A DNA stretch of 64,000 nt, from the NCBI GenBank assembly GCA_004376055.2, contig CP049016.1, positions 2,046,001 through 2,110,000 on the forward strand, given 5' to 3'. The DNA comes from Nitrospirales bacterium LBB_01. GTDB lineage: Bacteria > Nitrospirota > Thermodesulfovibrionia > Thermodesulfovibrionales > Magnetobacteriaceae. Positions within the stretch are counted from its first letter, which is position 1, and each line of letters begins with the position of its first letter. Both the position numbers and the translations under genes were made by a program. Under the pieces are notes generated by a model. It was not told the DNA's origin and did no database searches. It saw only the letters and a program-made list of their open reading frames with translations. Positions 47,886-64,000 of the stretch are shown here, in pieces.

Positions 47886-48530
47886 TCAGGTGTCAAATGG
47901 ACGATTATTTGTAATAATCAGTTTATATAAACGATCCACATCATCTCTATCTTTCATATGAAAATGTAAAGAATCTATAAACTGTACATATTTCCCGGTT
48001 TTTAATGAAATTTTCTCCGCAACATATTTCTGTATAGCAATAAACTCATTGAAATTCATCAATAGTTTCCCATAACAATCCGATGTTCGCATATGTACGT
48101 GCAAGTGTAAGGATTCATTTATAATTTTAAACCACAAAATCTGAAGACAAGGTGCAATTTTAGAATTGTGATCAGTCTCATTATTCCATACTGCTACCTG
48201 AGCGCGTGGGCAATCAGGCCATACTGTAAGTATATCAATAATCGTTTTAACGTAATTTTGCTTTACAAAAAGTCTTTCTCTGTATAGTTTAGTCCACTCA
48301 TGCTCAATTTCTCCCTCTCCATAGACAATGTAAGTATTAATTCTATCAATAGCTTCTCTACTCATCGGAAAAAACGAAGAATAATTATTAGAGTAAATAT
48401 TGTCTATCTCAATAGCAGCACACTCGTTTTTATAAAAGTTGTTGAATTCTAATTCACTCCCATTTTCATATAAAAGTAAAAAAGATTTTTCCCAGGCTGA
48501 GGCCGCATCTTTTGTCTTTATACAAAGCAT
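47886..48530 (-). CDS. short thymidylate synthase-family protein
   Basis: A 214-residue protein whose second half matches the ThyA fold. The phosphate-binding Arg is in C-P-R-A-Q-V-A-V-W-N. The catalytic Cys is C128 in A-P-C-L-Q-I-L-W-F, followed by R148-T-S-D151, N161 in M-N-F-N-E-F and H189 in S-L-H-F-H. The N-terminal 80 residues are unlike normal ThyA, and the length is 50 short of bacterial ThyA. It may be a dCMP/dUMP-modifying relative. It is encoded 4 bases after the membrane protein at 48535-49221, in AT-rich DNA that is unlike the neighbouring dnaE. Confidence 0.72.
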   Translation of the reverse strand: MLCIKTKDAASAWEKSFLLLYENGSELEFNNFYKNECAAIEIDNIYSNNYSSFFPMSREAIDRINTYIVYGEGEIEHEWTKLYRERLFVKQNYVKTIIDILTVWPDCPRAQVAVWNNETDHNSKIAPCLQILWFKIINESLHLHVHMRTSDCYGKLLMNFNEFIAIQKYVAEKISLKTGKYVQFIDSLHFHMKDRDDVDRLYKLIITNNRPFDT

Positions 48531-51402: not shown

Positions 51403-52299
51403 ATGCGGGAAAATGTACTAAAGTTGACCAACACAGTGAATATTGATACAGTGGGTGTTATCGGTGCCGGAGTGATGGGTGTCGGTGTAGCCCAAAATGC
51501 CGCCCAGAGTGGGAAAAAGGTTGTTTTAATTGACCTTGACCCTGTGATACTGGAAAAAGCCATAGATAAAATTAGACGTGACCTGCGTTTTCAAAGCATG
51601 TTTAAACCTGCCTATGCTACTGTTTTAGATTCCGCAACGGTTTTAAATAACATTACACCATCCTCAGATTATAATCTTCTGAGCAGTACCGATTACATAA
51701 TAGAAAATGTCACCGAGAAATGGGATATAAAGAAGGAAGTCTATCAGAAAATAGATACTCTGGCAAAAGATAACTGTATTTTTGCAGCCAACACATCGGC
51801 TATTCCCATAACCCGTATTGCCTCCCTTACAAAGAGGCCTGAAAAGGTTATCGGTATTCATTTTATGAACCCAGTGCCGCTTAAGTCTGCGGTTGAGGTA
51901 ATAATGGGCTACCACACTACGGAGGAGACTCTTAATACTACAAAAGACCTCCTGTCCTCTATGGGCAAGGAAAGCATTGTGGTTAATGACTCGCCGGGTT
52001 TTGTCTCAAACCGAGTGCTTATGCTTACCATAAATGAGGCCATATATCTGGTCTATGAAAATGTGGCAAAGCCGGAGGATGTGGATAGGATATTTAAGAC
52101 CTGCTTTGGACACCAGATGGGCCCCCTTGAGACGGCAGATTTAATCGGGCTGGACACTATCCTTTACTCCATTGACGTTCTATATGAGAGCTTTAACGAC
52201 AGCAAGTTTAGACCATGCCCGTTACTTAAAAAAATGGTCGATGCCGGTCTCTACGGCATGAAAAACGGCAAAGGGTTCTACACCTATGACGACTTTTAG
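51403..52299 (+). CDS. FkbK-like 3-hydroxyacyl-CoA dehydrogenase family protein
   Basis: A 298-residue NAD-dependent dehydrogenase with the Rossmann motif V-I-G-A-G-V-M-G-V-G near residue 21, the catalytic His in V-I-G-I-H-F-M-N-P and the C-terminal helical dimer domain with G-P-L-E-T-A-D-L-I-G. By itself it reads as 3-hydroxybutyryl-CoA dehydrogenase. Its neighbours (carrier protein, acyl-CoA dehydrogenase, FkbH-like protein) make it the FkbK member of a hydroxy- or methoxymalonyl-ACP pathway, where it oxidises the glyceryl-ACP hydroxyl. It is the first gene of the set. Confidence 0.9.
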   Translation: MRENVLKLTNTVNIDTVGVIGAGVMGVGVAQNAAQSGKKVVLIDLDPVILEKAIDKIRRDLRFQSMFKPAYATVLDSATVLNNITPSSDYNLLSSTDYIIENVTEKWDIKKEVYQKIDTLAKDNCIFAANTSAIPITRIASLTKRPEKVIGIHFMNPVPLKSAVEVIMGYHTTEETLNTTKDLLSSMGKESIVVNDSPGFVSNRVLMLTINEAIYLVYENVAKPEDVDRIFKTCFGHQMGPLETADLIGLDTILYSIDVLYESFNDSKFRPCPLLKKMVDAGLYGMKNGKGFYTYDDF

Positions 52300-52346
52300 C
52301 GTTATCACTGCATTTAAAATAAACAAACGAGGTAGCGGATATCTGA

Positions 52347-52592
52347 ATGACTCCTGAAGAGATAAAAACAAAAGTCAGAGCCTTCCTTTTAAAATATATT
52401 AAAAAGCCTGATATTAAAGACGATGAAGACTATTTTGCATCTAAACTAATTAATTCCCTCTTTGCCATGCAGCTTGTTATGTTTGTCGAAAAGGAGTTCA
52501 AAATAAAAGTTGAAGACAAAGACCTTGAAATTAAGAATTTTAATTCGATAGACTCAGTTTCAGGCCTTATAACAAGAAAACTTACTTCTTAA
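52347..52592 (+). CDS. FkbJ-like freestanding acyl carrier protein
   Basis: An 81-residue acyl carrier protein. The phosphopantetheine Ser is in L-I-N-S-L-F-A-M-Q-L-V (N-S-L in place of the usual D-S-L), a form I associate with FkbJ-type carriers of glyceryl and hydroxymalonyl units. Helix 4 ends in S-G-L-I. It sits 47 bases after the FkbK-like gene and 27 before the FkbI-like gene. It should carry the three-carbon unit from loading by the FkbH-like protein to delivery to the AT of the megasynthase. Confidence 0.87.
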   Translation: MTPEEIKTKVRAFLLKYIKKPDIKDDEDYFASKLINSLFAMQLVMFVEKEFKIKVEDKDLEIKNFNSIDSVSGLITRKLTS

Positions 52593-52619
52593 AAAGACAA
52601 TTAAACCTCAGAGGTAAAC

Positions 52620-53750
52620 ATGGAGTTAACAAAAGAGCAGGAACAAGCACAGGTGGAATTTAAAGCGTTTGTAAATGAGCATGTTGCGCCATTTGCTGAT
52701 ACATTTGACAGGGAGCAGAAAATACCTGATGAACTGATAGCGCTGATTGCCCAAAATGGTTGGTTTGGATTGATTGTCCCTAAAGAGTATGGCGGCATGG
52801 CGGCGGATATGATAACCTATGGGCTAATGTGTGAGGAGATGGGATGTGGCAGCGCCTCTCTTTTAAGTCTCCTAACCGTACATGGGATGGTTATACAGGC
52901 TATTCTGCGATGGGGTAGCAGCGTTCTTAAGGAGCGATGGTTACGTAAACTTGCCGCAGGGGAGGTTATCGGCGCATTTGCCCTCACTGAGCCAAATATC
53001 GGAAGTGACGCCAGCAGTGTTGAAACCGTTGCAGTTAAGACTGAAACAGGGTTTATATTAACCGGTAAAAAGAAGTGGATTTCTTTTGGTCAAAGAGCTG
53101 ACTTATTTATGATTATCGCTCAGTGCGAGGGCAAACCAACAGCGTTTTTGCTTGAAAAGAGCACGCCGGGTTTTTCTATCGCACAAATTACCGACACGTT
53201 TGGGTTTCGGGCTGCTATGATGGCAGAGCTTACGATGGATAACTGTCTCATTGCAGAGGAAAACATGGTTGGACGAATCGGTTTTGGAGTCACTCATGTA
53301 GCCACCCATGCGCTTGACTATGGCAGATATACGGTCGGTTGGGGTTGTGTGGGGCTTGCTAGGGCATGTCTTGAGGCAAGCCTTAAATATACCGCACAGA
53401 GAGTGCAATTTGGCACATACCTGCGCAAGCACCAGTTGATTCAGCATATGATTACCGACATGATAGCCTCTATCACCGCAGCGCGTCTTTTGTGTTTTAA
53501 TGCGGGGCAATTAAAAGATACCGGAGATCACAGAACTATTATGGAAACCGCAATCGCCAAATACTTTTCATCCACGATGGTTGTAAAGGCAGCACTTGAC
53601 GCTGTGCAAATTCACGGAGCTAACGGCATAAGCTGTGACTATCCAGTGGCAAGATACCTTAGAGACGCTAAAGTTATGGAGATAATTGAGGGAAGCTCAC
53701 AGATGCAGCAGATAATTATAGCAAGGTATGGGTATCAGGAATATTTATAG
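52620..53750 (+). CDS. FkbI-like acyl-CoA (acyl-ACP) dehydrogenase
   Basis: A 376-residue flavoprotein with F-A-L-T-E-P-N-I-G-S-D-A-S, K-K-W-I-S-F-G, R-V-Q-F-G-T-Y-L-R-K-H-Q and Q-I-H-G-A-N-G-I-S, and with E-G-S-S-Q-M-Q near the end. Length is that of normal acyl-CoA dehydrogenases. In the FK520 and zwittermicin pathways such enzymes help oxidise the ACP-bound three-carbon unit to hydroxymalonyl. Its place between the FkbJ-like and FkbH-like genes gives it that role here; a degradative function is much less likely. Confidence 0.9.
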   Translation: MELTKEQEQAQVEFKAFVNEHVAPFADTFDREQKIPDELIALIAQNGWFGLIVPKEYGGMAADMITYGLMCEEMGCGSASLLSLLTVHGMVIQAILRWGSSVLKERWLRKLAAGEVIGAFALTEPNIGSDASSVETVAVKTETGFILTGKKKWISFGQRADLFMIIAQCEGKPTAFLLEKSTPGFSIAQITDTFGFRAAMMAELTMDNCLIAEENMVGRIGFGVTHVATHALDYGRYTVGWGCVGLARACLEASLKYTAQRVQFGTYLRKHQLIQHMITDMIASITAARLLCFNAGQLKDTGDHRTIMETAIAKYFSSTMVVKAALDAVQIHGANGISCDYPVARYLRDAKVMEIIEGSSQMQQIIIARYGYQEYL

Positions 53751-53764
53751 TCTTTGAAAAAAGA

Positions 53765-53800
53765 TTAATCCGCAGATGACGCAGATGAACGCAAATGACA
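53765..53800. repeat. short Cys/Arg-coding-type dispersed repeat (CGCAGATGACGCAGATGAACGC)
   Basis: TAATCCGCAGATGACGCAGA and the following TGAACGCAAATGAC form a short internally repeated motif of GCAGATGA units. Very similar sequences are scattered between genes in many environmental bacteria, by general recall. Only this copy is seen in the window. It lies between the FkbI-like and FkbH-like genes. Confidence 0.4.
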
Positions 53801-53859
53801 AAATTATAAATCTGGGAAAATATGCTGGGAAAAGACATTTCTCTTGAAAAGGAAAATAT

Positions 53860-54903
53860 GTGACAGAAGTCAAAAAAACAAAATGTCTCGTATGGGACTT
53901 GGATAATACACTGTGGAACGGCACGCTCCTTGAGGGCGACCGTATAACGTTAAATGAAAATGCCGTACATGCCATCAAAACCCTTGACAGCCGTGGAATA
54001 CTTCAATCAATTGCAAGCAAAAACGACTATAACACAGCTATGTCAAAGCTCTGTGAGTTTGGTTTAGAGGAGTTTTTCCTGTATCCTCAGATAAATTGGG
54101 GCACTAAATCGGAGTCTGTCAAAAAAATCGCAGAACTGATCAATATAGGCGTTGATACGCTTGCCTTCATAGACGATAATCAATTTGAGCTTGACGAGGT
54201 GACATTTTCATTGCCGGAGGTTCTGTGCATACACGCAGATTCTCTTGACAGCGTTTTGGGCATGGAGAGTATGACCCCTGACTTTATAACAGAAGACTCT
54301 AAAAACCGCCGTCTAATGTATATGGCTGACATGGAGCGAAACAAGGCTGAGGAGTCTTACGAGGGCCCAAAAGAGGAGTTTCTGAGCACACTTGATATGG
54401 TCTTTGATATTTCTCTTGCTACCACAGAAGACCTTAAAAGAGCTGAGGAGCTTACCGTTAGGACCAACCAGCTTAACACCACAGGTTACACGTATAGTTA
54501 TGACGAGCTGGATGAGTTTATTAGATCAAACGGACATCTGCTTCTTATTGCCTCACTTAGTGACCGGTACGGCACTTACGGAAAAATTGGTCTTGTGCTG
54601 ATTGAAGTCACTGACTCGGCATGGATTATAAAGCTGCTTCTGATGTCGTGCCGAGTGATGAGCCGCGGTGTAGGAGCGATAGTGATAAACTATCTGAGAA
54701 ATGAAGCGCGCAGGCATGGAGTAAAACTGCTTGCCGAGATGATACAAAACGACAAAAACCGGATGATGTATGTTACTTACAAGTTTTCCGGATTTAGCGA
54801 CATTAGCAGAGACGGGCAGTTGGTAATCATGGAAAACACATCGCTTGATGACATTCCTCCGTATCCTGAGTATGTTAAATTGAGATTTCCACAATCGTTG
54901 TAA
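53860..54903 (+). CDS. FkbH-like glyceryl-ACP synthase (HAD superfamily)
   Basis: A 347-residue protein with the HAD nucleophile motif V-W-D-L-D-N-T-L-W-N-G at residues 10-20, F-I-D-D-N-Q-F-E-L-D near 105, and a C-terminal acetyltransferase-like half (L-S-D-R-Y-G-T-Y-G-K-I-G-L-V). FkbH enzymes take 1,3-bisphosphoglycerate, remove a phosphate and load glyceryl onto the dedicated ACP, the first step to hydroxymalonyl-ACP. The start is GTG, 7 bases after AAGGA. It is followed by MITE-like copy 4 and then the megasynthase. Confidence 0.92.
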   Translation: MTEVKKTKCLVWDLDNTLWNGTLLEGDRITLNENAVHAIKTLDSRGILQSIASKNDYNTAMSKLCEFGLEEFFLYPQINWGTKSESVKKIAELINIGVDTLAFIDDNQFELDEVTFSLPEVLCIHADSLDSVLGMESMTPDFITEDSKNRRLMYMADMERNKAEESYEGPKEEFLSTLDMVFDISLATTEDLKRAEELTVRTNQLNTTGYTYSYDELDEFIRSNGHLLLIASLSDRYGTYGKIGLVLIEVTDSAWIIKLLLMSCRVMSRGVGAIVINYLRNEARRHGVKLLAEMIQNDKNRMMYVTYKFSGFSDISRDGQLVIMENTSLDDIPPYPEYVKLRFPQSL

Positions 54904-54911
54904 CAGGAGAA

Positions 54912-55137
54912 ATGCTTACTAAGTTAACTAAGGAAGAGGGTTTAATGGTTTTTAAGGAGGTAGGTTTTATAATTATTAGAATTAGGAAAAGGACTGGATT
55001 CCCGCTCGGAGGCGGGAATGACAGAGGTGGGAGTTTTCTTTTTCTGTCATTCATCTTTTTCCTGTCATTCATCTTTTTCTTGTCATTCCTGCGAAGGCAG
55101 GAATCCAGTTTTTTATCGGATTTAATTACAAAGGCAT
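54912..55137. repeat. MITE-like dispersed element, copy 4
   Basis: A 226 bp copy beginning ATGCTTACTAAGTTAACTAA, 8 bases after the FkbH-like stop, and ending near CGGATTTAATTACAAAGGCA. The inner arms GGACTGGATTCCCGC and its complement are kept. Between them, a unit of about 20 bases (CTTTTTCCTGTCATTCAT) occurs two to three times (about 55030-55090). It fills the gap before the megasynthase gene and holds no gene. Confidence 0.72.
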
Positions 55138-55161
55138 TGAAGGAGATATAAAGGAAATAAA

Positions 55162-58100
55162 ATGAGTACCGATAGCAAAGACACGCTAAAAAATCTTTAC
55201 AAGGCATATAAGGCTCTGCAAATAAAGACGGCTAAGTTTGAAGAGCCAATAGCTGTAACCGGCATCGGATGCCGGTTTCCGGGTGGGGCTGATACTCCTG
55301 AAAAATTCTGGCAGATTTTGGAAAAAGGACAGGATGTAACGAGTGAGGTGCCAAAAGACAGGTGGTCTGTTGATACATTCTATGACCCTGACCCTGACGC
55401 TGTCGGTAAGTCTTACACAAAACGCGGGGGATTTCTGAGTGAACCGGTTAGCGGCTTTGATAACGGTTTTTTTCAGATATCTCCCGATGAGGCCAAAAGT
55501 ATGGACCCGCAGCAGCGGATGCTTCTTGAGGTGACCCGTGAGGCGCTGGAAAATTCTGCTACTGACCCAAACAGCCTTGCTGGAACTCTTACCGGAGTTT
55601 TCATTGGAATCGTTAATAATGACTATATGTCGGCTCATCTACGCTGTGGAGACCTTTCAAAAATAGACTCATACTCCATAACAGGAATTGCGGCAAGCAC
55701 TGCCACTGGGCGTATCTCCTACACTTACGGTCTTGAGGGGCCGAGTGTGGCGATAGACACGGCATGTTCGTCCTCGCTTGCTGCAATACACTTGGCTTGT
55801 CAAAGTTTAAAAACAGGGGAGTCTGATATGGCACTTGCCGGAGGGGTGCATCTTAACCTTACGCCTGAGGGGTTTATCGGTTTTTGCAAGATTAAAATTC
55901 TTTCCCCTGACGGGCGCTGCCGGAGTTTTGATGCACAGGCTGACGGGATGTCTAAGGGTGAAGGGTGCGGAATAGTCGTCCTAAAACGGCTCTCTGACGC
56001 CATATCTCATGGCGACAGGGTAATAGCCGTCATAAAGGGCAGCGCTATGAACCAAGACGGCCGCAGCAATGGGCTTACGGCTCCGAACGGTTTAGCGCAG
56101 GAAAAGGTTATGCGCAAGGCTCTTGAAAAAGCTGCAATAGAACCCTCCGATGTGGGATATATTGAGGCTCATGGCTCGGCTACTTCATTAGGCGACACTG
56201 TTGAGATACAATCCATTACCAATGTATATAGAAACGGACGAGGTAACGCACTATCTGTCGGAACGGTTAAGGCAAACATCGGGCATCTTGAGGGCGCTGC
56301 CGGCGTTGCAGGGTTTATAAAGACAGCGCTTATGCTTGAAAAAGGCATCATACCGCCACTGGCTAATTTTGAAAAACCTAACCCGCTTATTCAATGGGAC
56401 AGCGTTAAGATAGATACCTCAGCAGTCAAATGGGATAATGGCGCTCGCATTGCTGCGGTTAGCTCATACGGCTTTAGCGGCACTAATGTTCACTTAATAG
56501 TTGGCGAACCCTCTGTAATAGACAATAGAACATCTGGAGAAACGCCTGGTTACCAATTGCTTAACATTTCCGCTAAAACCAAAGAGGCATTGAGAGCACT
56601 TGCTAAGAGACACCACGATTATTTAGTTGAAGACAGCGATGTCTCCTTAGCCGATATATGCTACACTGCCGCCATCGGGCGGGCACAATTACCCTGCCGC
56701 CTTAGCGTAACAGGGAAAACCAAAGGCGAAATGTGTGAAAAACTGGAAAGCAGTCTAAACTCTGCCGACTACACGGATGGCTGTGTAAGCGGTGAGATAT
56801 CGCATTTCCCTAAAAAGATAGTGTTTATGTTTGCTGGACAAGGCTCTCAATACCGCGATATGGGAAAAGACCTCTACCAAAGCTTGGAGGTATTTCGCAA
56901 TGCAATGGACGCCTGTGACGCTATAGCAAAACCAATAACAGGGAAATCAATTATAGAAATCATATATGGCAATGAGGACGCTGACCTTATTAATGAAACA
57001 CTCTATACTCAGCCTGCCATTTTCTCGGTTGAGTATGCTCTTGCCATGCTTTGGCTTTCGTGGGGTGTAAAACCATCTGCCGTGATGGGACACAGCATAG
57101 GGCAGTACGTTGCCGCATGTGTAGCAGGGGTGTTTTCTCTGACTGATGCTGTCACACTTGTGTGCGAAAGAGGGCGTCTCATACAGAGTTTAACAAAAGA
57201 CGGCAGTATGGCTGTGGTTCTTACAGATGAGAAAACCGTTAACTCTCTAATAGAAAAGTATTCGGAACGAGTCTCGTTAGCAGCAGTAAACGGCCCTGAA
57301 AACGTTGTTATCTCCGGCGACAAGGAGTCCGTGTCGGAGGTAATCGCTCAGTTTATAGAAATGGACATACCGGCAAGAGAGATTAAGATATCGCACGCAA
57401 TTCACAGTGTTCTTATGGAGCCTATACTTGGCGACTTCCTTGAAGCGGCTAAAAAGGTGTCATACTCAGCGCCCAAAATCCCGCTTGTGTCAAACGCTGA
57501 CGGCAGGTTTGCTGCGGATGAGACAGCAACGCCTGAGTTTTGGGTCAAACATCTTAGAGGATGTGTCCGGTTTTATGACTCGGTTGTCAATTTGGACAGG
57601 TGGGGATTTAACGTGTTTATAGAGGTCGGAGCTGCGACAACTCTTATGAGTCTTGGAATCCAATGTCTGCCTGATAATGAATCGCTTTGGGTGTATTCGC
57701 TTGGCATTAACAACTCCATGTTTAACATGCGTCCGATGCGTTACGAATCCACAAACGATTGGCAGCAGATGTTAAGGGGGCTTTCAGAGCTTTTTGTTGC
57801 CGGAGTTGAAATTGACTGGAAAGGGGTTATCGGCTCTCACTTAACAGGACGGAAAAAGGTTGCCCTGCCCACATATCCATATGAGCGTAAACATCTTTGG
57901 ATAGCTCCCGTGTATGAATACCAACAGCTAAAAGCAGAGCTTCCATCTGTTGACGTAAGCGCTCAGAACGAGCAATCCGAACCGGCGCCTCAACGTGAGA
58001 ATTTTCAAAATGAGATTTTAAATTTAATAAGAAAAATCTCAGGCATAGATATATCAATTCACGATTATGATAAAAACCTGTTCACGCTTGGACTTGTATC

Positions 58101-61100
58101 GCTTATGATAACCCGGATAAGGGATTCTATCAGACGCACTTACGGCGTCGATATAAAGATGTCCTCATTTTATAAAGAAACAAGCACTGTTAATAAACTT
58201 CTTGATTATATTAAAAAACGTCTGCCGCAAGATGCTCCAAGTGTTACACCTCTGTCTGACAATAGCGGGACAAGGAGCATAACTGAGATACCTGTAAAAC
58301 AGACCTTTACCGTGTATCGTAAGATTATGGAAAGGGAGGCGCTGAGTCTTGACAAGATAAAACAAGCCCATGTAAATAAGCTAATAAAACGCTACACGGA
58401 AAAAACCGCAGCCTCACGAGCGCACACCCAAAAGTATCGCAGCGTGTTTGCCAATATTAGAAACATTTCCGGGTTTCGTATGGAATGGAAAGACATGATT
58501 TATCAGATAGTGGCAAAGCGCGCCGAAGGCTCAAAAATATGGGACATGGACGGCAGACGGTACTTAGACATTTCTATGGGATTTGGCGTTTATCTGTTTG
58601 GTCACAATCCGCCTTTTATAAGACCAGAACTGGAAAAAGAGTTTCTTAACGGGTTTCCAATTGGGCCGATGTCGCAATTAGCCGCAGAGAATGCCCAGTT
58701 AATATGTGAGATGGCAAATGTTGAGCGCGTGGCTTTTTTTAATACCGGAACTGAGGCCGTTATGGCGGCAGTCCGAATTGCACGCACCGTTACAGGGAGG
58801 GATAAACTTGTCGTGTTTTCGGGTGCCTATCACGGTCACAGCGACGGAGTGCTGGCTACAGGGTATTTTGAGGGAGATATTTTGAGAACTGTTCCGCTTT
58901 CTCCCGGAACCCCACAGGGAATGGTCAACGATGTTTATGTTTTAAATTATGATGAGCCGGCATCTTTAGAGTTTATCAAAAAACACGGCAAAGAGATAGC
59001 CGCCGTTATGGTAGAGCCTGTGCAGAGCCGGAGACCGGACTTACAGCCCGCTCAATTTCTTAAGGCGCTGAGGGAGTTGACAGAAGACATTGGCAGCGCT
59101 TTGATATTTGATGAGATGATAACCGGATTTAGAACACACCCTGGCGGCGCTCAGGCATGGTTTGGAATTAAAGCCGACATTGTGACATACGGCAAGGTAA
59201 TAGGAGGCGGGCTTCCTATTGGCGTTGTTGCAGGAAAGGCTCAGTATCTTGATGCTGTTGACGGCGGCTTCTGGTCGTTTGATGACGGCTCCTATCCACA
59301 GAGAGAAAACACACTGATAGCGGGCACATTTAACCATCATCCGCTTGCAATGGCAGGAGCAAGGGCGGTTATGCAGCATCTTAAAAACATTGGACCCACT
59401 CTTCAGAGCGAACTAAATCAACGCACCGATAGCCTTTCTAAACGCATAAACGAATACCTTACCGGTGAGGGAATCTCCACTATCCAGATGGTCAACTTTG
59501 CCTCCTTGTTCAGATTTGTGCTTAAAGGGGACGATGAGCTGCTTAACTATCATCTTCTTGACCGAGGAATATATGTGTGGGAGGGCAGGGCGTGTTTCCT
59601 TTCAACAGCCCACACAGACGATGATATTAAATTCTTTGAGGACGCCGTAAGAGACAGCATTGCTGAAATGAAAGAGGGCGGGTTTTTTCAGACTGACAGC
59701 GTTAAACACAAGGCTCACGTTGTTAAACCGACCACAGTACCAGTATCCAGCGCTCAGAGGCGGCTCTATGCCTTGAGCCAATTTGAAGGGGGGCAGCTAA
59801 GTTACCACGTGCCGGTTGTGTTTTTTATTGACGGCGCACTTGATATAAAACGATTTGGCAGCATCTTTAATGAGCTTATTAATAGACACGAAAGCCTGCG
59901 GAGCAGTTTTGTGTTAGAAAACGGAGAGATTCGCAGGCTTGCAGCTGAGAGCGTAGATTTTGACGTTCAATACGCAGCCATAAAAGAGGATGCGACAGAG
60001 GGATTTGTAAGGGATTTTATAAGGGATTTTGAACTATCCAAAGCGCCGTTAATAAGGGTTTGTTTAGCCAATATTGAAGACGGGAAAAACCGCAGTTTAT
60101 GTATAATTGACGCTCATCACATTGTCTTTGACGGAATCTCAGCCGACATACTGGTTGGCGAGCTTATTGAGTTATATCGGAAAGAGAAGCTCCAGCCGCT
60201 TAAAAAACAGTATCGGGATTATACGGCATGGGAAGCTGATTATACCAAATCTCACGAGTTTCAGTTACACGAGAAATTCTGGCTTGATATGCTTTCAGAT
60301 AACACTCCGGTACTGAACCTTCCTTATGATTTTCAGCGGCCAAAGATACGCTCCTTTAATGGAAAGCGGCTTTTTGTAACGATAGATGAAACTAAAACCA
60401 CCGCTCTTAAAGAATATTCCGCAAAGTGCGGCGTATCGCTCTACGCTCTGCTTTTTGCCGCACACAGCGTTCTGCTTCATAAACTAACCGGACAGAGTGA
60501 TTTAATCATAGGCACAAACTTTGACGGCAGAAACCACGAGGATCTGACAGACGTAATCGGAATGTTTGTCAGTACTCTTGCATTAAGAACAAGACCCGAA
60601 GTAGAAAAGCATTTTAACGCATTTGTCAGCGAGATTCAGGAAACTGTGCTTGAGGCGCTGGACTGCCAAAGTTTCCCATTTGAAATTCTTGTAAATAAAC
60701 TGCATCTTAAGCGCGACGTCAGTAAAAACCCACTGTTTGATACCATGTTTGTCTATGAAAAAATTGATACTAAAACATTTGTATCCGGGGATTTAACATT
60801 TAGAAAATTTGATTATTCCATTGATAAATCCATGTTTGACCTAACTCACGAATTTTTAGAGCTTGAAGGCACACTAAACATGTCTATGGAGTTTAATACG
60901 GCTTTATTTAAGGTTGAAACGATAGAAAGATTTTTAAATTTTTATGAAAACATCTTAAATTCTATTTTAACAAAACCAGACATTGCCATCCGTGACATTG
61001 GCATTCTGTCAGAAGAGGAATCAAGGCGGCTGACAGTGGATTTCAACAGCACTGCCAAAGACTTTCCGCTTCACTTGACTATAGCGGATTTATTTGAAAG

Positions 61101-64000
61101 ACAGGCGGCAAAAACTCCTGAAAATATTGCAATTAAATTTAACGATATAACATATACATATCGCACGCTTAATGAGAAGTCTAACCGGGTTGCTAATTTT
61201 TTAAAAACACATATAACGCTTAATGATGAGGAACTGATTGCCATAATGGCAGACCGCTCAGAGTGGACTGTTGTCGCAATGCTTGGAATACTCAAGGCAG
61301 GGGCAGCGTTTCTTCCTATAGACCCTGCATACCCAGAGGACAGAATCTCCTACATGATAGAGGACAGCGGCTGCCGAATTCTGCTTACTCATTTAGAAAA
61401 TATTGAAAACGATAAACTTGAAGTCATAAATATTAAAAACATTATCTGTGATGATTCAAAAAATCCTGTAAGAACGATAACGCCAAAGAGCCTTGCCTAT
61501 GTCATATACACATCTGGCACTACAGGGCGGCCAAAGGGCGTTATGATAGAGCACGAAACCCTCGTAAATATGGCGCTTGCACACATTGACTTTTTTGAAA
61601 TCACAGACTCTGACAGAATGCTTCAGTTTTCTTCAATGTCGTCGGATACGTCGCTCTTTGAGATATTTCTTTCCCTATTTGCAGGGGCTGCTGTTGTGCT
61701 TATAGACAAAGAAACAATTTTTAACACGGCAAATTTTATAAAATACATTGAGGAAATGGGCGTCACATTTTTAGCGCTCCCTCCGGTCTATCTAAATAGT
61801 TTAAACAAAGCACAACTTGGCACAGTGCGCGCCATAGCCTCCTGCGGCGCTCCGGCAGTTGTCAGTGACGCTCTGTTTTATGGCAAAAATAAGGTGTTTT
61901 TTAACTCATACGGACCAACTGAAACCACAGTAGCCGTAACTTATTACAGACTGGATATGGAACGCTCCTATGATGCCCATATTCCAATAGGCCCCCCCAT
62001 TTCAAACACCTGTATATACATAGTTGACGAATCGCTTAACCTGGTTCCAATTGGCATAGAGGGGGAGCTTTGCATAGGCGGTAAGTGCCTTGCCCGCGGA
62101 TACAAGAATAAGCCTGAGACGACGGCTGAGAAGTTCATAATGATTGCTGCCGCCGGAGACCAAAGGCTTTATAGAAGCGGCGATATGGGTCGGTGGCTTT
62201 CTGACGGTAACATTGAGTGCACGGGAAGAAAAGACGACCAGCTAAAGGTTAGAGGCTACAGGGTAGAGCTAAGCGAGGTGGAATACGCTGTCTCCTCACA
62301 CCATATGGTAAAAGCCGTTGTGGTAATAGCGCGGAAATTCTTAAGCGAAACCCCTGAGCTTATCGCCTACATAATAAAGCAAGGGACACTTACAGCAGCT
62401 GAGTTGAGGGCATATATGGGTAAACGCCTGCCCGATTACATGATTCCAGCATATATTGTGTTTGTTGATAAATTCCCGCTTTCCCCCAACAACAAAGTTG
62501 ATAAGAAAGCGCTTCCCGACCCGATTAAAACTGACGAAAATGGCAATTTAACGGAACCGTCAACTGAAACTGAACGAGTTCTCGTCAGAGCACTAATGAC
62601 AATACTTGACAGAAAAACAGTTGGTGTAAATGATGACTTTTTTGCTCTTGGCGGCGATTCCATAAAGGCGATACAACTGATATCCGCCCTTAATGCCGAG
62701 AGGCTTTCCATTTCGGTGCGGGATGTTTTTGAAAACCCTGTGCTAACCGATATGGCAAGGAAAATTACCGGAGCTACAGCGTTGTCGGAACAGGGGATTG
62801 TCACCGGCACAGTACCATTGACTGCAATTCAAAGGTGGTTTTTTGACAGTAACCTTACATCAAACCATTACACACAAGGCATTTTGCTTAACTGCTCCAG
62901 CAGAATTAACAAGGAGACACTTAATGAGGCATTTACAAAACTCATGGAGCATCATGACACACTCAGAATGGAATACACTTTTTCTGCTGACGGCAGAGTA
63001 ATTCAGGAATGTTCTCCAGATATAAACGCCATCACTGTTGAGACAGTCGTTGTTGACAATGACTCCGATATTGCAGAGCTTTGTGCCGCAGTGCCTCCAA
63101 CAGTTGACCTTAAAAAAGGGCAATTACTTAAGGCCGTCATATATAAGGGGCAGGTGAGCGATTATCTTTTGATAGTCATACACCATTTAATAGTGGACGG
63201 CGTTTCGTGGCGAATCCTTATAGAGGATATCTCACAGGCATATAAGTCAATCACTGAAAGAACAGCTGTCACATTCCCACCTAAGACAGCTTCTTATAAG
63301 GCATGGGCGGAAACAATTACTGAATATGCCGCATTACCACAATTGCTAAAAGAGGCCGAGTACTGGAACTCAGTTTGCAAAACCGTTGCAGAGCCTATAA
63401 AGACCGATTATGATAACGATGGAAATTTTGAAACGCTCAATTTTACGCTTAACTCAGACATTACAACGCTAATTTTAACGAATAGCACGGAAACGCGGGA
63501 TATTCTTCTTTCGGCGCTTCTCTTGGCTGTCTATGAAACTTATGGAGTAAAGACCATAGCGGTTGAGCTTGAAGGACACGGCAGAGAGGAGATAATTGAA
63601 GGGATTAACGTGTCTAGAACCGTTGGCTGGTTTACATCTGTGTATCCTGTAGTGTTAAACATATCGGAGAGCGGCAATCTTGATGACACTATCAAGCACG
63701 TAAAGGAAACACTGCGAAAAGTACCTCAAAATGGCATTGGTTATGGGATATTGAAATATATTTCAGGGGAACACGGCTTGAGTTTAAACCAATCCCCTCA
63801 GATTGCCTTTAACTATCTTGGTTCATTTGACAGCTTACAACAGGGAGGAGTTTTTAAATTTTCCGATATTGTGGTTGAAAACACCATAAGCCATAACTTC
63901 AGAGACGTCAACGTTCTGTCTGTAGAGGGATTTGTTGTAAATAACATGTTTCACGGCTCAATATCCTATAACACTGGTGTCTATACCGCTGAGACAGTCT
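55162..64000 (+). CDS. hybrid PKS-NRPS megasynthase KS-AT-ACP-aminotransferase-C-A-PCP-E, 3' end outside the window
   Basis: One frame of 2946 codons with no stop runs to the window edge. KS about residues 28-455: C202 in D-T-A-C-S-S-S, H337 in E-A-H-G-S, H375 in G-H-L-E-G. AT 550-850: S645 in G-H-S-I-G-Q; the specificity site reads H745-A-I-H rather than the malonyl H-A-F-H or methylmalonyl Y-A-S-H. No KR, DH or ER. ACP about 950-1015: S980. Class III aminotransferase 1075-1510: K1345 in Y-G-K-V-I-G-G-G. C domain 1530-1945: H1652-H1653-x-x-x-D1657-G. A domain 1970-2440: Y-T-S-G-T-T-G-R-P-K-G-V. PCP: S2500 in L-G-G-D-S. E domain from about 2550: H2674-H-x-x-x-D2679, F-N-Y-L-G. It should build an alpha-hydroxy-beta-amino acyl unit, add an amino acid and epimerise it. 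ATG follows an AGGAG/AAGGA region. No loading domain, so the starter comes from elsewhere. Confidence 0.93.
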   Translation, partial: MSTDSKDTLKNLYKAYKALQIKTAKFEEPIAVTGIGCRFPGGADTPEKFWQILEKGQDVTSEVPKDRWSVDTFYDPDPDAVGKSYTKRGGFLSEPVSGFDNGFFQISPDEAKSMDPQQRMLLEVTREALENSATDPNSLAGTLTGVFIGIVNNDYMSAHLRCGDLSKIDSYSITGIAASTATGRISYTYGLEGPSVAIDTACSSSLAAIHLACQSLKTGESDMALAGGVHLNLTPEGFIGFCKIKILSPDGRCRSFDAQADGMSKGEGCGIVVLKRLSDAISHGDRVIAVIKGSAMNQDGRSNGLTAPNGLAQEKVMRKALEKAAIEPSDVGYIEAHGSATSLGDTVEIQSITNVYRNGRGNALSVGTVKANIGHLEGAAGVAGFIKTALMLEKGIIPPLANFEKPNPLIQWDSVKIDTSAVKWDNGARIAAVSSYGFSGTNVHLIVGEPSVIDNRTSGETPGYQLLNISAKTKEALRALAKRHHDYLVEDSDVSLADICYTAAIGRAQLPCRLSVTGKTKGEMCEKLESSLNSADYTDGCVSGEISHFPKKIVFMFAGQGSQYRDMGKDLYQSLEVFRNAMDACDAIAKPITGKSIIEIIYGNEDADLINETLYTQPAIFSVEYALAMLWLSWGVKPSAVMGHSIGQYVAACVAGVFSLTDAVTLVCERGRLIQSLTKDGSMAVVLTDEKTVNSLIEKYSERVSLAAVNGPENVVISGDKESVSEVIAQFIEMDIPAREIKISHAIHSVLMEPILGDFLEAAKKVSYSAPKIPLVSNADGRFAADETATPEFWVKHLRGCVRFYDSVVNLDRWGFNVFIEVGAATTLMSLGIQCLPDNESLWVYSLGINNSMFNMRPMRYESTNDWQQMLRGLSELFVAGVEIDWKGVIGSHLTGRKKVALPTYPYERKHLWIAPVYEYQQLKAELPSVDVSAQNEQSEPAPQRENFQNEILNLIRKISGIDISIHDYDKNLFTLGLVSLMITRIRDSIRRTYGVDIKMSSFYKETSTVNKLLDYIKKRLPQDAPSVTPLSDNSGTRSITEIPVKQTFTVYRKIMEREALSLDKIKQAHVNKLIKRYTEKTAASRAHTQKYRSVFANIRNISGFRMEWKDMIYQIVAKRAEGSKIWDMDGRRYLDISMGFGVYLFGHNPPFIRPELEKEFLNGFPIGPMSQLAAENAQLICEMANVERVAFFNTGTEAVMAAVRIARTVTGRDKLVVFSGAYHGHSDGVLATGYFEGDILRTVPLSPGTPQGMVNDVYVLNYDEPASLEFIKKHGKEIAAVMVEPVQSRRPDLQPAQFLKALRELTEDIGSALIFDEMITGFRTHPGGAQAWFGIKADIVTYGKVIGGGLPIGVVAGKAQYLDAVDGGFWSFDDGSYPQRENTLIAGTFNHHPLAMAGARAVMQHLKNIGPTLQSELNQRTDSLSKRINEYLTGEGISTIQMVNFASLFRFVLKGDDELLNYHLLDRGIYVWEGRACFLSTAHTDDDIKFFEDAVRDSIAEMKEGGFFQTDSVKHKAHVVKPTTVPVSSAQRRLYALSQFEGGQLSYHVPVVFFIDGALDIKRFGSIFNELINRHESLRSSFVLENGEIRRLAAESVDFDVQYAAIKEDATEGFVRDFIRDFELSKAPLIRVCLANIEDGKNRSLCIIDAHHIVFDGISADILVGELIELYRKEKLQPLKKQYRDYTAWEADYTKSHEFQLHEKFWLDMLSDNTPVLNLPYDFQRPKIRSFNGKRLFVTIDETKTTALKEYSAKCGVSLYALLFAAHSVLLHKLTGQSDLIIGTNFDGRNHEDLTDVIGMFVSTLALRTRPEVEKHFNAFVSEIQETVLEALDCQSFPFEILVNKLHLKRDVSKNPLFDTMFVYEKIDTKTFVSGDLTFRKFDYSIDKSMFDLTHEFLELEGTLNMSMEFNTALFKVETIERFLNFYENILNSILTKPDIAIRDIGILSEEESRRLTVDFNSTAKDFPLHLTIADLFERQAAKTPENIAIKFNDITYTYRTLNEKSNRVANFLKTHITLNDEELIAIMADRSEWTVVAMLGILKAGAAFLPIDPAYPEDRISYMIEDSGCRILLTHLENIENDKLEVINIKNIICDDSKNPVRTITPKSLAYVIYTSGTTGRPKGVMIEHETLVNMALAHIDFFEITDSDRMLQFSSMSSDTSLFEIFLSLFAGAAVVLIDKETIFNTANFIKYIEEMGVTFLALPPVYLNSLNKAQLGTVRAIASCGAPAVVSDALFYGKNKVFFNSYGPTETTVAVTYYRLDMERSYDAHIPIGPPISNTCIYIVDESLNLVPIGIEGELCIGGKCLARGYKNKPETTAEKFIMIAAAGDQRLYRSGDMGRWLSDGNIECTGRKDDQLKVRGYRVELSEVEYAVSSHHMVKAVVVIARKFLSETPELIAYIIKQGTLTAAELRAYMGKRLPDYMIPAYIVFVDKFPLSPNNKVDKKALPDPIKTDENGNLTEPSTETERVLVRALMTILDRKTVGVNDDFFALGGDSIKAIQLISALNAERLSISVRDVFENPVLTDMARKITGATALSEQGIVTGTVPLTAIQRWFFDSNLTSNHYTQGILLNCSSRINKETLNEAFTKLMEHHDTLRMEYTFSADGRVIQECSPDINAITVETVVVDNDSDIAELCAAVPPTVDLKKGQLLKAVIYKGQVSDYLLIVIHHLIVDGVSWRILIEDISQAYKSITERTAVTFPPKTASYKAWAETITEYAALPQLLKEAEYWNSVCKTVAEPIKTDYDNDGNFETLNFTLNSDITTLILTNSTETRDILLSALLLAVYETYGVKTIAVELEGHGREEIIEGINVSRTVGWFTSVYPVVLNISESGNLDDTIKHVKETLRKVPQNGIGYGILKYISGEHGLSLNQSPQIAFNYLGSFDSLQQGGVFKFSDIVVENTISHNFRDVNVLSVEGFVVNNMFHGSISYNTGVYTAETV

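Follow-up and report, generated by a model that had tools for sequence, protein, structure and literature searches.

Can a polyketide synthase (PKS) module take an alpha-hydroxyl group from its extender unit and a beta-amino group from an in-line aminotransferase (AmT)? The question was raised by a hybrid PKS-nonribosomal peptide synthetase (NRPS) gene of Nitrospirales bacterium LBB_01 (GCA_004376055.2, contig CP049016.1), located in a stretch of 64,000 nucleotides (positions 2,046,001 to 2,110,000, forward strand) that was analyzed as a whole and is called the window here. A preliminary description, made from the letters of the window alone, had predicted such a module from the order of acyltransferase (AT), acyl carrier protein (ACP) and AmT at 56812-59700. 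We found a complete gene cassette for the supply of hydroxymalonyl-ACP, absent from that description, directly upstream of the PKS gene. The analysis favors, with a probability of about 0.66, hydroxymalonyl extension followed by in-line transamination, which would place an alpha-hydroxy-beta-amino acyl unit at the head of a peptide of about five residues.

The Aminotransferase Module and Its Extender Cassette

The cassette and the PKS module comprise the following features.

51403-52299, + strand: 3-hydroxyacyl-CoA dehydrogenase-like protein (FkbK/ZmaG type), cassette gene 1 (Pfam 3HCDH_N/3HCDH)
52347-52592, + strand: stand-alone ACP of 81 aa, FkbJ/ZmaD type (PP-binding 21.1 bits, cut-off 20.8; serine in INSLF)
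52620-53750, + strand: acyl-ACP dehydrogenase-like protein, FkbI/ZmaE type (Pfam Acyl-CoA_dh N/M/1; cassette position conserved)
53860-54903, + strand: FkbH-type glyceryltransferase/phosphatase, three-carbon glycolytic unit to ACP (TIGR01686 272.6 bits, cut-off 146.65)
55162-64000, running about 1.5 kb beyond the window, + strand: hybrid PKS-NRPS, KS-AT-ACP-AmT-C-A-PCP-E-C, 3440 aa in the genome
55243-56505, + strand: ketosynthase (KS) domain; active-site cysteine in DTACSSS, hence no decarboxylating KSQ
56821-57681, + strand: AT domain, proposed to be hydroxymalonyl-ACP-selective (Pfam Acyl_transf_1; tree; motif table)
57370-57405, + strand: AT lid strand, from P737-A-R739 (RXR position) to H745-A-I747-H748 (motif roles, PMC4207774)
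about 58009-58215, + strand: in-line ACP, proposed acceptor of hydroxymalonyl (position; serine motif LGLVSLM)
58462-59670, + strand: class III AmT, predicted to turn a beta-keto thioester into a beta-amine (Pfam Aminotran_3; pyridoxal phosphate (PLP) lysine conserved)
59731-61032, + strand: condensation (C) domain right after the AmT (Pfam Condensation)

The four cassette genes are complete and contiguous, and end 258 bp before the start of the PKS gene. The FkbH protein shares 57-63% identity with FkbH of other hydroxy/methoxymalonyl-type clusters, and the gene order (3-hydroxyacyl-CoA dehydrogenase, ACP, acyl-ACP dehydrogenase, FkbH) is the same in cyanobacterial, Streptomyces, Alkalihalophilus, and Alkaliphilus loci. 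An O-methyltransferase, required solely in the methoxymalonyl branch, was found neither in 51403-64000 nor in the downstream genes scanned, while an FkbM methyltransferase is annotated beside the cassette in two of the Streptomyces loci compared. Since no methyltransferase was found at the window cassette, hydroxymalonyl would be expected rather than methoxymalonyl; the missing enzyme points to hydroxymalonyl and is compatible with membership of the cassette family. Between the FkbH and PKS genes lies a palindromic interspersed repeat (54987-55115), matched about 40 or more times across the genome; same-genus relatives have merely a 17 bp gap at this spot.

The AT-ACP-AmT order predicted earlier was confirmed: it occupies 56821-59670 of one open reading frame (ORF), after the KS and directly ahead of the C domain. 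The Pfam matches span aa 28-404 (KS, extension to 510), 554-837 (AT), 1111-1435 (Aminotran_3), 1524-1957 (Condensation), 1978-2445 (adenylation, A), and 2474-2533 (peptidyl carrier protein, PCP). All catalytic motifs examined in the KS, AT, ACP, and AmT were intact; the AT carries GHSIGQ (aa 643) and HAIH (aa 745-748), and the PLP lysine of the AmT stands in TYGK. A Pfam scan of the ORF from 55162 to 64000 gave no ketoreductase (KR), dehydratase, methyltransferase, or oxygenase between the AT and the C domain, and the genes scanned in the cassette and PKS block likewise yielded no oxygenase. The C domain begins about 60 bp past the AmT, and the site of the monooxygenase in cyanobacterial synthases is empty here. 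The fused class III AmT between the ACP and the C domain and the missing KR confirmed, as far as domain composition can tell, a module of the in-line AmT (MycA) type. The AmT is 53-59% identical to iturin-type AmTs (53% to BamA) and 58.8% to a Paenibacillus PKS-AmT, and this agrees with the conversion of a beta-keto group into a beta-amine that had been proposed by analogy with mycosubtilin and iturin.

From these features we infer the AT substrate, the order of the steps, and the product as follows. FkbH would charge the stand-alone ACP with a glyceryl unit, and the two dehydrogenases would oxidize it to hydroxymalonyl-ACP. The HAIH-type AT would then transfer hydroxymalonyl to the in-line ACP, and the KS would join it to an acyl starter, which itself is presumed, giving an alpha-hydroxy-beta-keto thioester. 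Transamination of the beta-keto group by the in-line AmT would yield the alpha-hydroxy-beta-amino acyl-ACP, which the C domain would couple to the first amino acid, and NRPS parts ending in a thioesterase (TE) would add about five residues. Along this route the alpha-hydroxyl would form without O2.

Conservation of the Cassette and the Module

The window genome (G000) is a single contig of 3.27 Mb, and it was compared with relatives from an AmT profile scan of a genome collection, in which 80 of 193 were kept. The cassette and the KS-AT-ACP-AmT-C-A block occur together in four Nitrospirota genomes, the window included (the others being L021 in G003, L022, and L117 in G002, the last drawn from the genome set), and in one metagenome-assembled genome (MAG) of Proteobacteria (L023). 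L021 is the Nitrospirae MAG nDJH6bin1, of the same genus as the host. The KS, AT, and AmT are 80-92% identical in the nearest relatives with dN/dS of 0.05-0.11, which excludes a chance origin of the module. The stand-alone ACP shares 91% identity with its counterparts in relatives of the same genus (dN/dS 0.05-0.11), and across all cassette genes and module domains dN/dS ranged from 0.05 to 0.13. These results indicate that the block is held under strong purifying selection.

AT Residues That Follow the Cassette

Residue 747 of the AT is isoleucine in 6/6 ATs of the cassette group and phenylalanine in the 30/30 other ATs compared, including those of the sisters L025 and L056. The departure of HAIH from the usual AT motifs, remarked on earlier, was borne out in that HAIH replaces HAFH only in relatives whose genomes carry the cassette; it is, however, no known hydroxymalonyl signature. 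As a general signature HAIH was rejected, because the canonical cassette-linked ATs of cyanobacteria and Streptomyces have GYS[LI]G and often keep HAFH. Further residues specific to the cassette group are P737, the first RXR position, and I743. Three of the five group-specific residues of the AT core fall within the 13-residue lid strand (hypergeometric P 7e-4, a post hoc value computed after viewing the data). In ZmaA-AT this strand is tied to recognition of the ACP and extender, and Park et al. propose that it relays ACP binding to the substrate lid (PMC4207774).

In the AmT tree, the cassette-less L025 and L056 fall beside the cassette-bearing L023 within the group (support 97/96), and therefore the cassette and the motif changed together. 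A search of the L056 genome, which is of uncertain completeness, gave no FkbH. G000 itself encodes four PKS ATs and FabD, none with GYSxG. The remaining three PKS ATs belong to reducing PKSs at other loci. A cassette that has been kept must have a consumer for its product, and the window AT is the obvious candidate. Separately, the AmT module of an Anaerolinea MAG (L047, 6952 onward) has an AT with LAAH, like the GAAH of ZmaA, yet the MAG gave no FkbH.

Cassette and AmT in Alkaliphilus

In Alkaliphilus transvaalensis (L071), the same cassette is accompanied by an AMP-ligase-ACP-KS, a discrete AT, a transporter, and an ACP-AmT-C protein. In an uncultured Alkaliphilus (L097/G311), the cassette lies about 7.5 kb upstream of a KS-ACP-AmT-C gene that is followed by a discrete AT. 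The AmTs of both clusters fall elsewhere in the AmT tree. The discrete ATs of Alkaliphilus clusters (L071 4326-7752; L155 10494-13865) are uncharged at the RXR position, with NIT and IIT. Alkaliphilus is anaerobic, consistent with a hydroxyl that is introduced without O2. We tentatively suggest, at somewhat less than even odds, that AmT modules recruited the cassette at least twice as an O2-independent route to alpha-hydroxy-beta-amino units, with an in-line malonyl-type AT in Nitrospirota and Proteobacteria and with a discrete AT in Alkaliphilus. In Nitrospirota and Proteobacteria, a malonyl-CoA AT may have turned to an ACP-linked extender through a few changes in the lid strand, HAFH to HAIH among them.

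Comparison With Known Synthases

The synthases of iturin, mycosubtilin, and bacillomycin D (ItuA, MycA, BamA) share with the window module the KS, the ACP, the in-line class III AmT ahead of a C domain, and the missing KR, but they use a discrete malonyl-CoA transacylase, have no FkbH cassette, and give a product without the alpha-hydroxyl. The puwainaphycin synthase PuwE and the AmT-monooxygenase modules of tychonamide and floridanemamide resemble it in their KS-AT-ACP-AmT order, which leads to a 3-amino-2-hydroxy acyl unit (PMC4219810, PMC13252402). There, however, an in-line flavin monooxygenase is credited with the 2-hydroxyl, and in place of such a domain the window module has the extender cassette; L037, with a luciferase-like domain (PF00296) behind the AmT, served as the comparison case. 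ZmaA-AT of zwittermicin (PMC4207774) likewise has supply genes for hydroxymalonyl-ACP and is proposed to take an ACP-linked extender, but its motifs are GYSFG, MCM, and GAAH against GHSIG, PAR, and HAIH in the window AT, which grouped with CurL. Microginin MicD and its Planktothrix homologue (L019) have the order KS-AT-ACP-AmT-C-A, but MicD is primed by a fatty acyl-AMP ligase (FAAL), has an HAFH AT, and lacks the cassette. The preliminary description attributed the hydroxyl of known alpha-hydroxy-beta-amino units to an oxygenase. That holds for the published 3-amino-2-hydroxy modules, which combine an AmT with a monooxygenase (PMC4219810, PMC13252402); for microginin, the accessible part of the review PMC12250027 assigns no source. 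The suggestion that an extender-derived route would be new has held up so far: searches on hydroxymalonyl with beta-amino or aminotransferase returned no such module and no precedent, a novelty bounded by the literature searched, since most subscription papers lay outside its coverage.

What Else Could the Cassette and the AT Do?

Several observations weigh against a hydroxymalonyl-selective AT. Three of them, the place of the AT in the tree, its active-site motif, and the retained Arg739, are also the case for an AT that loads plain malonyl-CoA, giving an ordinary beta-amino acid as in iturin while hydroxymalonyl-ACP is consumed elsewhere or left unused. The window AT falls among malonyl-type ATs in the tree, next to CurL and other AmT-module ATs and apart from ZmaA. 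The preliminary description had named two outcomes that would jointly count against its idea, clustering with ordinary malonyl-CoA ATs and acceptance of malonyl-CoA only, and the former is what the tree gave. The AT has GHSIGQ, whereas GYS[LIF]G marks characterized or predicted ATs for ACP-linked extenders, ZmaA and ZmaF included, and membership of the ZmaA clade is ruled out by the tree and by the missing GYSxG. At the RXR position it has P-A-R where the hydrophobic form would be M-x-M/W; the first residue is uncharged, and Arg739 is kept. P737 also occurs in the paralogue L002 of G000 (IPTR, HAFH) and is a weak marker, and the association of motif and cassette comes from one clade, that is, from one or two events. 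A microginin-type synthase (L019; PMC12250027) shows that an alpha-hydroxyl can be present although the module has no visible monooxygenase domain or cassette. Furthermore, Ca. Magnetocorallium (L024), of the same family as the host, has an HAIH AT with the cassette unlinked on another contig. We had considered this genome as proof that an orphan cassette serves the HAIH module, and withdrew this, as a GYSLG AT exists in the same genome, which therefore speaks clearly for neither side. Even so, plain malonyl loading appears unlikely, because G000 offers no other plausible consumer AT, selection has kept the cassette beside the PKS gene in all five genomes described above, and the change from HAFH to HAIH tracks the cassette.

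Intermediate motifs on a malonyl-type backbone, with isoleucine for phenylalanine and the charged RXR pair partly lost, could also belong to a relaxed AT that accepts both extenders, so that alpha-hydroxylated products would be formed alongside others lacking the hydroxyl. We regard this as improbable, since the carrier ACP biases selection in the ZmaA work (PMC4207774), which would favor one route. Another reading turns on the loading of the KS, which begins the protein behind a docking-like N-terminus: no loading enzyme was found in the cluster, which is a further difficulty for hydroxymalonyl extension, and FAAL was rejected as a loader, because a genome scan gave only partial, weak matches and none convincing. 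The cassette might then serve to prime the KS with an acyl-ACP of glyceryl or glycolyl type, while the AT loads malonyl. Both dehydrogenases are present, however, and to our knowledge glyceryl-starter systems need neither. HAIH would be left unexplained, and Alkaliphilus has the cassette alongside an AMP-ligase-ACP-KS loader, so a starter role is the most improbable of these readings. Hydroxymalonyl extension with in-line transamination thus remains our preferred reading.

Two observations in Ca. Magnetocorallium complete the comparison. Its cassette (L118, G009:C99, 6056-9798) is surrounded by genes for CheW, CheR, and histidine kinases, and no PKS gene adjoins it. The canonical GYSLGE FkbH-type AT (L172, G009:C42:18070-19305) is part of a PKS-NRPS ORF of 6526 aa, and FkbH gave no match on that contig.

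Downstream NRPS Genes and Predicted Product

The PKS gene is followed by genes for an asparagine-synthase-like protein, an Asp/Glu racemase, an NRPS of A-PCP-C-A-PCP-E (NRPS2), and an NRPS of C-A-PCP-C-A-PCP-TE (NRPS3), in which epimerization (E) and C domains were distinguished by reading the sequences. Read collinearly from the E-C end of the PKS protein onward, this order predicts five residues behind the acyl unit, the first and third of them each followed by an E domain. The ten-residue codes of the A domains, compared by eye, suggest a Phe-like residue three (DAYTIAAVCK), a Gly-like residue four (DILQIGVIWK), and Tyr as residue five (DASTIAAVCK). NRPS2 was also considered as the loader of the KS. 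An NRPS gene does stand ahead of the PKS in L056 and probably in L025, which speaks for this idea. The domain order makes it less likely: the last PKS domain is C, NRPS2 opens with A-PCP, and its terminal E precedes NRPS3, which opens with C.

The asparagine-synthase-like and racemase genes lie just beyond the window end (L006 6563-10041). Asparagine-synthase-like genes are found again in L021-L023, L025, and L056, and L021, L022, and L025 also have racemase-like genes, judged by N-terminal sequence; both look like parts of the cluster family. Elsewhere in the window, a short protein beside dnaE (47886-48530, minus strand) has a thymidylate-synthase-like match.

Implications

Alpha-hydroxy-beta-amino acids are active groups in several protease inhibitors and lipopeptides. 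If the proposed route is true, a compact AT-ACP-AmT cassette would become usable in engineering, and the ATs with HAIH and the cassette, set against those with HAFH and no cassette, offer a natural comparison for how a malonyl AT gains an ACP-linked hydroxylated unit. No O2-dependent oxygenase would be required, and prediction of such units by genome mining would become possible for anaerobes and microaerophiles.

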